In this document: positions 28,498-34,756 of the stretch, piece after piece
Position numbering within the stretch: the stretch's first letter is position 1
Layout: every line of letters starts with the position of its first letter
The notes under the pieces: model-generated
The model's database searches: none
Told to the model about the DNA's origin: nothing
What the model saw: only the letters and a program-made list of their open reading frames with translations
Program-made: the position numbers and the translations under genes
NCBI GenBank assembly: GCA_017467905.1
Contig: JAFUKD010000010.1
Coordinates: 1 to 64,000 of the forward strand
Source: Phascolarctobacterium sp.
GTDB taxonomy: Bacteria; Bacillota; Negativicutes; Acidaminococcales; Acidaminococcaceae
Direction of reading: 5' to 3'
DNA length: 64,000 nucleotides

Positions 28498-29679
28498 TCA
28501 TTTAATCTCAAAAACAGAAGCTGTGTTTTGTTTTTCACCAACAAACTGCGAATTTGAAAACTTCTCTATCAACTGCCTTACTGCCATGGTAGCAGAAAGC
28601 TGACCTTTGACAACCTCTTCTTCAATATTATCCTTGCATCCCATAATAACAGGAGAACGATAGAATAAATTATGAAGATGCTCCTCAACCATAGAGTAAA
28701 CCCAAGAAAGAGTTTGTTGTTTTCTACGTTCTGCAAGCACACCATTGTCCCAGCCTTGTTTCATAAAGACTTCAATGACATCATGCCACAGTTCCATGAT
28801 ACCTGCACCTGTGTAAGCAGAACAAGTGTAAGCATGAGTAGTCCAATTTTCGGTTGCTTGGCGCAAAAAGTACAATATTCTTTCGTACTCCGTCTTGGTA
28901 ACTAACGCCCGTTGCTTATTGTCGCCATCTGCTTTGTTAACGACAATAGCGTCAGCCAATTCCATTACGCCTTTCTTCATACCTTGCAGTTCGTCACCAG
29001 CACCAGTGAGAACAACTAACAAGAAGAAGTCTACCATTGAACGTACTGTGGTTTCACTTTGTCCTACACCAACAGTTTCTACCAATATAGTATCGTAGCC
29101 GGCTGCTTCGCATAAAAGCAAAGTTTCTCTACTCTTACGAGTTAACCCACCCAAGGTTCCACCGGAGGGAGATGGACGCACAAAGGCATTTGGTTCACGA
29201 GATAAATGTTCCATACGAGTTTTATCGCCTAAAATACTACCTTTAGTAACAGTACTGGACGGGTCAACTGCAAGAACTGCTACTTTATGACCAATCCTGC
29301 ACAAATTAGTTCCTAAAGCTTCTATAAAAGTAGACTTACCTGCACCGGGGACACCGGTAATGCCTACGCGAGTAGACTTACCGGTATACGGCAACAGTTT
29401 TTGAATAACTTGTTGTGCAATTTCAAAGTGAGCTGCAGCATTACTTTCTACAAGAGTAATCGCTCTTGATAGAATAGCACGGTCACCGTTCAGCACCCCC
29501 TCAACGTAATCATCAACGTCAAGGATGCGACGCCTTACAACAGGCACCACCTTATCTTTTTTGTTTACAACAACACCAGGAGTACCTTCATGACCACCTT
29601 CAACGCCATACATTACCCGGCAAGCAAATTTGCTGTCGTCTTTTTCAGGCACCCAAGAAGGTTTATATGTTTCAGTCAT
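28498..29679 (-). CDS. meaB: Methylmalonyl-CoA mutase-associated GTPase MeaB
   Basis: A 393-residue G3E-type P-loop GTPase that protects and reloads the cobalamin cofactor of the mutase. Walker A GVPGAGKST (about 109-117), the switch motif ETVGVGQSE and the guanine-binding NKAD are present. About 45 residues precede the usual MeaB start (MTETYKPSWVPEKDDSKFA), an N-terminal extension. The start codon almost touches the mutB stop, which indicates coupled translation. Confidence 0.94.
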   Translation of the reverse strand: MTETYKPSWVPEKDDSKFACRVMYGVEGGHEGTPGVVVNKKDKVVPVVRRRILDVDDYVEGVLNGDRAILSRAITLVESNAAAHFEIAQQVIQKLLPYTGKSTRVGITGVPGAGKSTFIEALGTNLCRIGHKVAVLAVDPSSTVTKGSILGDKTRMEHLSREPNAFVRPSPSGGTLGGLTRKSRETLLLCEAAGYDTILVETVGVGQSETTVRSMVDFFLLVVLTGAGDELQGMKKGVMELADAIVVNKADGDNKQRALVTKTEYERILYFLRQATENWTTHAYTCSAYTGAGIMELWHDVIEVFMKQGWDNGVLAERRKQQTLSWVYSMVEEHLHNLFYRSPVIMGCKDNIEEEVVKGQLSATMAVRQLIEKFSNSQFVGEKQNTASVFEIK

Positions 29680-29680
29680 T

Positions 29681-31873
29681 TTAATCTTCTAAGCCTAAAC
29701 GTTTGTTAAGCTCTTCCAAAACTTTTTTAGCGCAAACAGGAATGATGGTGCCGGGGCCAAAAATTGCTGCTGCACCGTGTTCATAGAGGAAGTCATAGTC
29801 TTGAGCGGGAATTACGCCGCCAATAACAACCATGATATCTTCACGACCACGTTTTTTGAGTTCTTCAACAAGTTGCGGCATAAGAGTCTTATGACCTGCA
29901 GCCAAACTACTCATACCAACAATATGTACGTCATTATCTACAGCGTCTTGTGCTGCTTCTTCCGGAGTTTGGAACAAAGGACCGATATCTACGTCATAGC
30001 CCATATCTGCGAAGGCAGTAGCAATAACTTTTGCACCACGGTCATGACCGTCTTGACCCATCTTAGCGATAAAGATACGCGGACGACGACCTTCTTTTTC
30101 TTCAAACTTGTCAGTCATAGAACGAACTTCTTTGATAACATCTTCGTCAGCAAATTCGCTACTATACACACCGGAGATAGAACGGATAATTGCTTTATGG
30201 CGACCACAAACTTTTTCAACAGCATCAGAAATTTCACCTTTAGAAGCACGAGCACGAGCAGCTTCAACTGCGAGTTCAAGCAAGTTGCCTTCGCCAGTTT
30301 CCATAGCGTGGGTAATTGCATTCAAGCAACGACGAACTTTATCGTTATCACGATTTGCACGCAATTTTTTGAGTCGTTCAATTTGCGCCAAACGAACTGC
30401 AGTATTGTCTACTTCCAGAATATCCAGCGGATCTTCTTTTTCCAAACGATAATCGTTAACGCCAACAATCATTTCTTCGCCAGAGTCAATATGTGCTTGA
30501 CGACGAGCAGCAGCTTCTTCAATACGCATCTTCGGCAGGCCGGTATCAATTGCTTTTGCCATACCACCAAGCTCTTCAACTTCTTGGATATGTGCCCAAG
30601 CTTTTCTGATAAGTTGATTGGTGAGGTATTCTACATAGTAGGAACCGCCCCACGGGTCAATAACTTTGCAAACTTGAGTTTCATCTTGAATATAAAGTTG
30701 GGTATTACGAGCGATACGAGCAGAGAAGTCTGTCGGCAACGCAATTGCTTCGTCAAGTGCGTTAGTATGCAAGGATTGGGTGTGACCCAACGCAGCAGCC
30801 ATCGCTTCAATACAAGTACGAGTAATATTATTGAAGGGATCTTGTTCGGTAAGGCTCCAACCGGAAGTTTGTGAGTGAGTGCGCAACGCCATGGATTTAG
30901 CTTTTTTAGGATTAAAGCTATTAACAATCTTAGCCCACAGCATGCGACCTGCACGCATTTTTGCAATTTCCATAAAGTAGTTTTTGCCCATTGCCCAGAA
31001 GAAGGAAAGACGCGGAGCAAATTGGTCAATTGTCAGACCGTGTTCAGTACCAGTTCTCAAGTATTCCAAACCGTCAGCAAGAGTATAGCCCAATTCGATA
31101 TCCGCAGTCGCACCAGCTTCTTGCATGTGATAGCCGGAAATAGAAATGCTGTTGAACTTGGGCATATATTTAGAGGTGTATTCAAAAATATCACCGATGA
31201 TACGCATAGAAGCAGAAGGCGGATAAATGTAGGTGTTGCGCACCATAAATTCTTTCAAAATATCATTTTGAATAGTACCAGCCATTACAGATTTATCTAC
31301 GCCTTGTTCTTCGCCTGCAAGAATGTAGAACGCCATTACCGGCAAAACCGCACCGTTCATGGTCATAGATACGGACATTTGATCCAAAGGAATACCGGAG
31401 AACAAGATTTCCATATCAAGAATGGAGTCTACTGCTACACCGGCTTTACCAACGTCACCTACAACACGAGGATGGTCAGAGTCATAACCACGGTGAGTAG
31501 CCAAGTCGAACGCAATGGACAAACCTTTTTGCCCAGCAGCCAAGTTACGACGATAGAACGCATTAGATTCTTCCGCAGTGGAGAAACCTGCGTATTGACG
31601 AACAGTCCAAGGTTTAGTTACGTACATTGTGGAATAAGGACCACGCAAAAACGGAGGAATACCTGCCATATAGTTCAAGTGGTTGCAATCAGCATAAGCA
31701 CTTGCATCATACAAAGGAGCTACGTCAATTTGCTCCATGGTGCGGGAAAAGTTTTCTTCAAAAGATTTCCCTGTTTCATTTTTTAATTGAACCTTCCAAG
31801 CATTATAGGCTTCTTCGCCACGCAAATCTACCTGCTGAAAGGGAATCTTTGAAAAATCAGGAATTCTAGACAT
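29681..31873 (-). CDS. mutB: Methylmalonyl-CoA mutase large (catalytic) subunit
   Basis: A 730-residue adenosylcobalamin enzyme interconverting succinyl-CoA and methylmalonyl-CoA. The TIM-barrel half has [22 protein letters not shown]. The C-terminal cobalamin-binding domain has the DxHxxG motif in [13 protein letters not shown] (about 608-620), followed by the GMSSLAAGH loop, so it binds B12 in the base-off form. It lies two bases after mutA. It is the key enzyme of the succinate-propionate route. Confidence 0.97.
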
Positions 31874-31875
31874 TA

Positions 31876-34068
31876 TCAGAACATCCCCCTTTCTTTTTGC
31901 ATACGGAGAAGGGTTTCATAACAGTTAGATTTAACACTGATATAATCATCCATACCAGCTTCATCACACAAAGCTTTCAGTTCTGCACTGGGAGCACCTG
32001 CCAAGAAAACTTTCATTTCCGGTTTAACTGCTTTTATACCTTTAGTCACAGCAGGAGCAAGTTCCGGATAAGTAACATCAGTGGAGCAAACAATAGCTGC
32101 ATCAGCACCGGATTCCAAGGCTGCCTTAACAGCTTCTTCAACAGTAGAATAACCATCATTATCAGTAAGCACGTTAAACGCAGCTACTTGCATAAAGGAA
32201 GTAACGAAGTCAGCACGTGCTTTATGTTGCGGAATGGGTCCCATTTTGGCCAAGAAGATTTTAACGTTTTCACCTGTTTCCGCTTGGAATTTTTCGGTAC
32301 GCAAACGCAATTCTTCATAACGTTCAGTCCAACGATGAGCCAAAATAGCTTCAATGGTTTCACCTTTAGCTTCGCCGGCAAGAGCAGCATTGATTTCGCC
32401 CATGGTAGCACCGGCAAGCAATGCCTTTTGAGCCATTACCACAAGATAACCAGGTTCGCTTGCATCAACTTTGCCAAGCTCATTCAATACAGCTTCTACA
32501 TATTCGTTATCACGAACTTTTACATTTACACGCAGCGCAGTTTTACGTTCCGCAATAATTTGTTCCATGTTTACAGGATGAGCTTCCAACAAAACTTCCG
32601 TCATATTAGGATACATATTATTACCTACTGCACGATCTTTACGTGTAGCCAAGTTTTTGAAGCGTTGTTCCAAAATTTCTTTGACTGCAGCTTGCACTTT
32701 ACCTTCGGCTAGTGCAGTAACGAGGCCACCATTGTCTTCAATTTCTTGGAATTTTGCCCAAGCTTTTTGAGTAAACTCTTCGGTAAGCGGTTCAATATAC
32801 CAGCTACCACCTGCAGGGTCAACAATTTGAGTAAAGTTGAACTCATTTTGTTCCATGATTTGAATGTTACGAGCAATACGACGAGAGAACTCATCACTAG
32901 GACGAATGCAATGGTCGAAAGGTTGTACATTCATACCATCAATACCACCAACTACCGCAGAGAAAGATTGAGTAGCTGCGCGCAACAGGTTTACATACGG
33001 GTCATACAAGGTTTGACAGAAAGTAGAAGTGCTTACAAACAAGTTTACTTTTTGAGCTTCTTCACAACCACCGCAATTTTTGACGATTTGCTCCCAAATA
33101 GTTTTCAAGCTACGCAATTTAGCAATTTCCATAAAGAAGATTGCGCCAATGCTGAAGTGGAAACGCAAGTGTTTGCAGAAAGTATCTACATCAATACCGC
33201 GCATTTCCATTGCACGCATATAAGTAACTGCTTGATTCATAGCATAAGCAACTTCTTGTACGGAGTTTGCACCACCATTGTGATATACTTCAGCATCAAC
33301 AATAACAGTGCGCAATTCCGGAGCATTCTTTTCAGCCCAAGCAATTGCATGTGCCATATCATCATAATATTCATCCAAAGGTTTTGCCAATTGACCATCT
33401 CTAACCAATTCGCCAATGGGATCAGCTACGATTGCACCATACAATTTAGTCAAAGGCAAACCTTTTCTGTCGCAAACTGCTGCAACTGCAGCCAAAAGTG
33501 CAACATTGGATGCACCCGCATGCAAATTGATTTCGAATTTTTCTAAATCAACTTCTTCCAACATTTTTTCAACGTCAGCCAAAGTAGACAAAGAAACACC
33601 GATATCAGCAATTTCTTTTTCGTCTGCCTTATCAGCATCAATACCTTTACGAGTAGCAGTGTCGAGTACGTTACAAACAGCAGTAGTGCCTTTCGCCAAT
33701 TCGTATCTAATCATAGCATTGGCATCAGCAGGAGTTTTAGCGTCACATTCTTGCGCAATAGTCCAAACTTTACGCAAATAGCCACCTGCATAAGCACCAC
33801 GAAGGTTACTATCTAAACCAGGATAGGTTTGATTATGAGTAAGACCTTCTTGCTCTTCCATTCTGTAAATGGGCTCGAAGGTAATTCCCTCATAAGTTTT
33901 AGTAAACATACTTTTTTCAAAAGAGCCACCTTTTAACGCATTTACTACCTCTTGCTTCCACTCTTCATAAGTGGGAGGATTGAATTCGCTAAAATCAACA
34001 GGAGGAAGTTCTTTTTCTACCAGTTCTTCCTGCTGTACATTTTCTTCAAGCATTTTATCTTGTTCCAT
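31876..34068 (-). CDS. mutA: Methylmalonyl-CoA mutase small subunit
   Basis: A 730-residue partner of MutB. The ATG at 34068 ([16 protein letters not shown]) is chosen because GAAAGG lies at the right distance; the ATG at 34077 overlaps that site. The C-terminal domain keeps the fold but has [15 protein letters not shown] where the large subunit has the cobalamin-ligating histidine, so it should not bind B12, as known for MutA. It heads the operon behind a leader of about 650 bases. Confidence 0.95.
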
Positions 34069-34207
34069 ATACGGCATCCTTTCTTTTTTAAGTTTGGGGT
34101 GCTGTATTTATTCACCTCCTATTCATTTTATATTTCTATCTATAGCAGAATGGTTCGAGTACCTCCTACCTAAACTGCGAAGATCCCTCCTGCACAACAA
34201 ACAAAAG

Positions 34208-34233
34208 CCATCACGAATATGGTGATGGCTGAA
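34208..34233 (-). terminator. Intrinsic terminator in the mut leader
   Basis: AGCCATCAC pairs with GTGATGGCT, followed on the minus strand by TTTTGTTTGTTG. It lies between the riboswitch and mutA, so riboswitch transcripts must read through it to reach the operon. Confidence 0.75.
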
Positions 34234-34241
34234 TTTACTAT

Positions 34242-34267
34242 TATGGTAGCGCACCCCACGCTACCAT
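34242..34267 (-). other. Stem-loop just upstream of the mut-leader terminator
   Basis: ATGGTAGCG pairs with CGCTACCAT around CACCCCA. It is separate from the terminator hairpin eight bases further on and may stabilise the RNA or take part in an alternative fold. Confidence 0.5.
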
Positions 34268-34269
34268 AA

Positions 34270-34550
34270 CAATGTGAGGAGAAAGGAAATATTAACCTAA
34301 CAATTAAGGAAAATTTTCAGAATAGCATTTAATACGGTGTGTCCAGCACCGAACAAGTTTTAATGAACGAATATTTTGTGACTACTCCTCTAAAGTCAGC
34401 CATCTTTTGACAACAGGCATAGAAACAAGAAGCCGTTTTTCTAGCACAGGACATCCCATTGCTACAAAAACGGCAGTATATCAGAAAATAAGCACATTAC
34501 AAATGCGCGCATTCTTAAACATATCTCCCCGTCTATCGCAGGTCAAACGA
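34270..34550 (-). other. Uncharacterised part of the mut leader
   Basis: This stretch between riboswitch and terminator has no ORF with a good ribosome site. It holds a long imperfect stem: GCCGTTTTT-C-TAGCA (34431-34445) with TGCTA-C-AAAAACGGC (34459-34473). It also holds a CGGTG/CACCG hairpin near 34340. It could be a regulated small RNA or part of the expression platform. Confidence 0.45.
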
Positions 34551-34554
34551 TGTG

Positions 34555-34706
34555 TGTTTTACAGGCAATTCTTCTGACTCAGACTCATTGCTCACTTCGC
34601 CTTCCCAGTTTCCCAGTGACATCTTGAAGCTCGCTCTTCTTTACAGCGACGGGATCGTGTCGGGCTTACACCGACTTCCTTATTAAGCTTACGCACCTGT
34701 AACATT
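34555..34706 (-). promoter_or_regulatory. Cobalamin (adenosylcobalamin-type) riboswitch
   Basis: On the minus strand the conserved parts occur in order: ACAGGTGCGTAAGC, AGGAAGTCGGTGTAAGCCCG with GACACGATCCCGTCGC, then the B12-box region (CACTGGGAAACTGGGAAGGC) and GAGTCAGAAGAATTGCCTGT, which closes the outer stem. It senses cobalamin. It points toward mutA, whose product uses that cofactor. Confidence 0.93.
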
Positions 34707-34727
34707 CAATATAAACTTGTTATCTTA

Positions 34728-34756
34728 ATAGTAACTCTTACCATTTATTTTGTCAA
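34728..34756 (-). promoter_or_regulatory. Promoter of the riboswitch-mut leader
   Basis: On the minus strand a perfect TTGACA (34751-34756) and TACTAT (34728-34733) are 17 bases apart, ending about 20 bases before the riboswitch. Confidence 0.88.

Follow-up and report, generated by a model that had tools for sequence, protein, structure and literature searches.

The window, i.e., the whole stretch of 64,000 nucleotides of Phascolarctobacterium sp. DNA that was analysed (positions 1 to 64,000 of contig JAFUKD010000010.1), carries the gene order mutA, mutB, meaB behind a long leader with a cobalamin riboswitch (Table 1). A sequence-only reading had named a consensus promoter, a clear cobalamin aptamer and these three genes, and all were borne out, by TTGACA-17-TACTAT at 34756-34728, by Rfam and by NCBIfam models, respectively. 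The aptamer covers the complete RF00174 model (positions 1-189) and scores far above the cut-off of 31.5 bits (E 5e-21), and a consensus version of the promoter, TTGACA..TATAAT, occupies this position in L009, L010, L022 and other leaders of relatives. The start of mutA is probably at or next to ATGGAACAAG; the aptamer lies 481 nt upstream of mutA, and in 18 of 20 loci of the same family this distance is 425-1165 nt. A search for related loci in genome contigs gave one distant match.

Table 1. Features of the mutA locus and its leader, in the direction of transcription
Feature	Position	Strand	Basis
Promoter of riboswitch transcript, TTGACA-N17-TACTAT	34728..34756	minus	Sequence match
Cobalamin riboswitch aptamer, RF00174	34547..34715	minus	Rfam covariance model, 90.2 bits
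Putative P13 hairpin (CCTG..CGGG)	34527..34542	minus	CCYGCGAGNGACGGGG conserved after mutA-leader aptamers
T1, riboswitch's own terminator (hairpin, then TTCTTGTTT)	34432..34474	minus	-23.1 kcal/mol, z -6.8; position conserved in relatives
Hairpin, 7-nt loop CUGGACA	34335..34351	minus	Stem covaries
Antisense segment, 29 nt	34303..34331	minus	Pairs with second mutase mRNA (G000:C31), 0 mismatches
Stable hairpin, loop GUGGGGUG	34241..34269	minus	-19.1 kcal/mol, z -5.7
T2, intrinsic terminator, end of the proposed antisense RNA	34196..34236	minus	-13.9 kcal/mol, z -4.9
mutA, methylmalonyl-CoA mutase small subunit	31876..34065	minus	Best model TIGR00642, below curated cut-off
mutB, methylmalonyl-CoA mutase large subunit	29681..31873	minus	NF006944, above cut-off
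meaB, mutase-associated GTPase	28498..29679	minus	NF006958, above cut-off

The terminator seen in the sequence-only reading is real and corresponds to T2 (34230-34206), with the gaps given there, i.e., ~315 nt from the aptamer to T2 and ~130 nt from T2 to mutA, and most relatives have terminator hairpins at the place of T2. That reading missed, however, a nearer terminator, T1, which is found 73 nt behind the aptamer and which, with its hairpin and T-rich tail, is stronger than T2. As T1 is close to the aptamer, the remainder of the long "leader" becomes a second functional segment. The 3' strand of the putative P13 hairpin, GAGNGACGG, is conserved and can form a helix with the 5' arm of T1 (CCGUYUUU..); such a helix appears in the predicted fold of L009 and is possibly an antiterminator. 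An automated antiterminator scan often took another hairpin for T1. T1 behind the aptamer together with the alternative pairing of P13 is the layout that would be expected of an OFF switch; the RF00174 element would bind adenosylcobalamin, and T1 would be its B12-dependent OFF terminator. The earlier proposal of an activating switch for mutA is not supported, given the position of T1 directly behind the aptamer and the mutA riboswitch of Veillonella parvula, which represses a reporter with corrinoids in Bacillus subtilis (PMC9600662). At 34404-34398, a GATGGCT sequence conserved in several genera is the reverse complement of AGCCATC, the 5' arm of T2 (34230-34222), and may form a long-range antiterminator for mutAB.

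Between T1 and T2 the leaders of the family share a motif consisting of a hairpin with the loop YYGGACR followed by ..YAUUCUSAAA.., and the stem of the CUGGACA hairpin has a covariation score of 0.602 versus 0.139 +/- 0.038 when shuffled. This segment had no match in Rfam, relaxed thresholds included, and a second riboswitch or known RNA family was rejected on that ground; a small ORF in the conserved motif was rejected because the reading frame is not kept between species. The 29-nt segment behind the hairpin, mostly unpaired in the predicted leader fold, is complementary to the mRNA of a second B12-dependent methylmalonyl-CoA mutase encoded on another contig. The operon of this second mutase (scpC - mutase large subunit - B12-binding subunit - meaB - epimerase - mmdA) specifies succinyl-CoA:acetate CoA-transferase, the B12-binding subunit, MeaB, an epimerase and methylmalonyl-CoA decarboxylase, i.e., a route from succinate to propionate. 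On the target mRNA the pairing begins upstream of AAGGAGG and reaches codon 4, and so includes the ribosome-binding site, the start codon and the first codons; 24 Watson-Crick and 4 G-U pairs were tabulated over 28 nt, and the ribosome-binding site is unpaired in the predicted fold of the target from this genome. When the 1.84-Mb genome was searched with a 27-nt G-U-tolerant pattern allowing up to three mismatches, only the leader itself and the target were matched, both with 0 mismatches. In addition, the CUGGACA loop can pair, as UGGAC:GUCCA, with a hairpin loop that precedes the ribosome-binding site of the target, and in 29 genomes the target has a 5' UTR carrying a GUCC-loop hairpin and either ACUCUCA or CUCUCA. 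The GUGGGGUG loop may make a third contact, to ACUCUCACC of the target 5' UTR; the pairing is weak in the window's copy and stronger in other family members.

A model of the element (R1) matched 42 of 380 genomes of the class, with strong matches in the mutA leaders of 23 family genomes, weaker ones antisense to the start of the second mutase gene, and no strong copy outside the window's family among these 380. Aptamer, T1, the motif between T1 and T2 and hairpins at the place of T2 recur in relatives. Leader and target are on different contigs or, as in G031 and G035, 41-51 kb apart, and the predicted antisense-target duplexes have energies of about -37 to -54 kcal/mol. The two partners change together. 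In a permutation test that ignores kinship among species, own antisense-target pairs of 17 species had 51 mismatches in total versus a permuted mean of 77 (0 of 20,000 permutations as low), and those of 11 representatives had 31 versus 49.8 (0 of 50,000). Where the target starts MAF (GGCAUUU), the RNA has AAAUGC or a similar sequence, and where it starts MAN (GGCAAAU), the RNA mostly has AUUUGC; the target of the window's genome has a 1-nt insertion, UUUUCAG, to which an additional A in the leader corresponds, and UUUCAG in the target of G034 and UUUUAG in those of G023 and G024 are likewise matched by their RNAs. The leader loop is complementary to the GUCC loop of the target over 4-7 bp in the nine species examined. 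A weaker duplex, with 6 mismatches, was seen in G058, and for the targets of G014, G015 and G016 the search gave no antisense RNA. A trans-acting antisense sRNA is marked by complementarity that co-evolves with the translation start of an mRNA encoded far away, as was observed for this leader. As leader and target have a long reverse-complement similarity, the complementarity could be imagined to have been left behind, without function, by an inverted duplication of the region where the target starts; this is highly improbable, since complementarity is kept by compensating changes between species, the hairpin stems covary while the loops stay complementary, and G013 and G025 have the contact modules arranged in another sequence.

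These two genomes, as well as G023 and G024, have similarly built RNAs that are not directly followed by a gene. In G013 and G025 a cobalamin riboswitch is followed by T1 and by antisense to the same start, together with further hairpins whose loops bear GAGAGU/GAGGGU and GGACA. A further riboswitch-linked RNA with the antisense AAAGTCATTTTCAAATGGTCCTT or similar was observed in G023 and G024 (G023:C29 and G024:C140; L082, L174); no better separate target was found for it, the pattern matching only the RNAs themselves. A second family, sRNA2, was revealed in 20 family genomes, some without mutAB, by a search with its loop UAUGUGAGAGUGG, and has a copy in the window's own genome (G000:C33); outside the family the loop search gave only two one-mismatch matches, which look like chance. 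Over 9 nt, the sRNA2 loop GUGAGAGUG fits CACUCUCAC of the target. Pairing is looser for the anti-start segments of sRNA2, which do clearly better than shuffled sequences in about six of eight genomes tested and only slightly better in G000 and G058 (7/200 and 22/200). The free-standing RNAs are mostly located behind a cobalamin aptamer, which in three same-genus sRNA2 copies (G002, G003 and the second copy of G001; L224, L226, L239) has decayed beyond recognition. In G001 and G002 sRNA2 is present and no mutase gene was detected in genomes that are 89 and 91% complete.

Two readings in which the leader would serve mutAB are to be weighed against these data. The first is an ordinary cis riboswitch, in which mutAB is switched off at T1 when B12 is present, while what remains of the leader forms another attenuator or riboswitch for mutA, independent of the first. 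The position of T1 immediately behind the aptamer, the V. parvula mutA precedent (PMC9600662) and the conserved GATGGCT, which suggests some control at T2, speak for it, but it leaves the 29-nt complementarity to a distant start site, the co-evolution and the gene-less copies elsewhere unexplained, and we regard it as unlikely. It is less likely still that the action is reversed, so that the mRNA of the second mutase acts on the mutA leader, for instance by promoting read-through of T2 into mutAB or by sponging the RNA, and the two mutases are reciprocally coupled. Such coupling would fit the position of mutAB behind T2, with no promoter found between T2 and mutA in a sequence scan, and the degenerate second copy of the element directly before mutA in L022, L026 and L027 of genus g14; the free-standing copies, however, have no gene to regulate in cis, and the duplex covers the start site of the target. 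The translation start site is the classic place for repression by a pairing RNA.

We consider it very likely that the mutA leader acts in trans as an antisense RNA, under control of the cobalamin riboswitch, and silences the second mutase at low B12. This rests on the riboswitch, T1 and T2, the conserved hairpin, the co-evolving complementarity and the lack of another genomic target, all of which are read from the sequence. When B12 is lacking, transcripts begun at the 34756 promoter would extend past T1 and end mostly at T2, giving a read-through RNA of ~520 nt that presumably accumulates as a stable sRNA. Its CUGGACA loop would kiss the GUCCA loop that the second mutase mRNA has in its 5' UTR, and the 29-nt antisense would cover the ribosome-binding site and start codon, so that translation is blocked and the second mutase repressed. 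With adenosylcobalamin bound, transcription would stop at T1, no antisense would be made and the second mutase would be translated; B12 would thus turn the mutase on, and the propionate pathway would stay off until its cofactor is present. A non-coding RNA of ~500 nt had been offered in the sequence-only reading as one option, and it is now strongly supported by the distance of ~520 nt from promoter to T2, by the conserved antisense element against a distant mRNA and by the existence of gene-less versions. A point against the antisense reading is the location of the B12-dependent mutAB behind a B12-OFF terminator, for which it does not fully account.

Several known systems resemble the proposed one. 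AspocR of Listeria monocytogenes is a B12 riboswitch-controlled antisense RNA with a full length of 1,400 nt, encoded opposite the regulator gene pocR and reported to act in trans, with base pairing proposed (PMC8079631). In both, a B12 riboswitch would terminate a transcript that otherwise represses B12-dependent metabolism. The mutA-leader RNA differs in that its target is the enzyme mRNA itself, encoded far away rather than on the opposite strand, with imperfect, co-evolving complementarity. EutX and Rli55 of Enterococcus and Listeria sequester the ANTAR protein EutV, Rli55 being ~450 nt long, or ~200 nt with B12 (PMC5821096, PMC8079631). The analogy to these RNAs drawn earlier holds for the logic, i.e., a cobalamin riboswitch and a terminated non-coding RNA that keep cofactor-dependent genes off without the cofactor, and the T1/T2 layout and gene-less versions were found here as well; it fails for the mechanism, which would be base pairing with an mRNA and not sequestration of a protein. 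The genome does encode two ANTAR-domain proteins (L240 and L241, on G000:C32 and G000:C9), and the riboswitch-ncRNA layout is the same, but no dual hexaloop ANNGNN hairpins are found in the leader, which has one chance-level site inside the aptamer, and no eut genes were seen in the fetched flanks of either protein. Sequestration of an ANTAR protein by the leader is therefore so improbable that we regard it as ruled out. The Listeria SAM riboswitches SreA and SreB act in trans on prfA (PMC8079631) and likewise represent riboswitch-derived RNAs pairing with a 5' UTR; the regulator in SreA is the ligand-terminated short form, whereas that of the mutA leader would be the read-through form, and its target, in contrast to that of SreA/SreB, uses the sensed cofactor. 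The V. parvula mutA riboswitch is of the same class and has the same downstream gene, but action in trans was not reported there (PMC9600662). No published description of this RNA, or of riboswitch sRNAs in this bacterial group, was found among the open PMC papers searched.

If the proposal is true, an OFF-type cobalamin riboswitch makes a B12-dependent pathway B12-inducible without a protein regulator, in bacteria that apparently convert succinate to propionate. It would add the case of a riboswitch-controlled trans-acting antisense RNA that targets an enzyme using the sensed cofactor, and it would give a reason for riboswitches without a downstream gene. It is tempting to speculate, tentatively and with the balance slightly against it, that there is a family-wide regulon in which several riboswitch-controlled antisense RNAs dock on one mRNA via up to three modules (two loop contacts and the anti-start segment) and in which, in mutA-bearing genomes, the transcript both encodes one mutase and silences the other, B12 exchanging the isozymes. 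The same transcript would there, by conjecture, favour mutAB while the other mutase is silenced. mutAB itself would be made only by read-through of T2. In genus g14 (L022, L025, L026, L027, L084) an MsrA-like gene is found behind T2, with a PF01625 match in L084. Between T2 and mutA of the window, a hairpin GGTAGGAG..CTCGAACC (34178-34145) is kept in L008-L010, and a strong Shine-Dalgarno-like AGGAGGTGAA without a start codon is located shortly before mutA (~34120-34096). The Shine-Dalgarno-like part is conserved in L009 and L010 and is followed, in the window, by GCACCCC, which is complementary to the loop of the GUGGGGUG hairpin.
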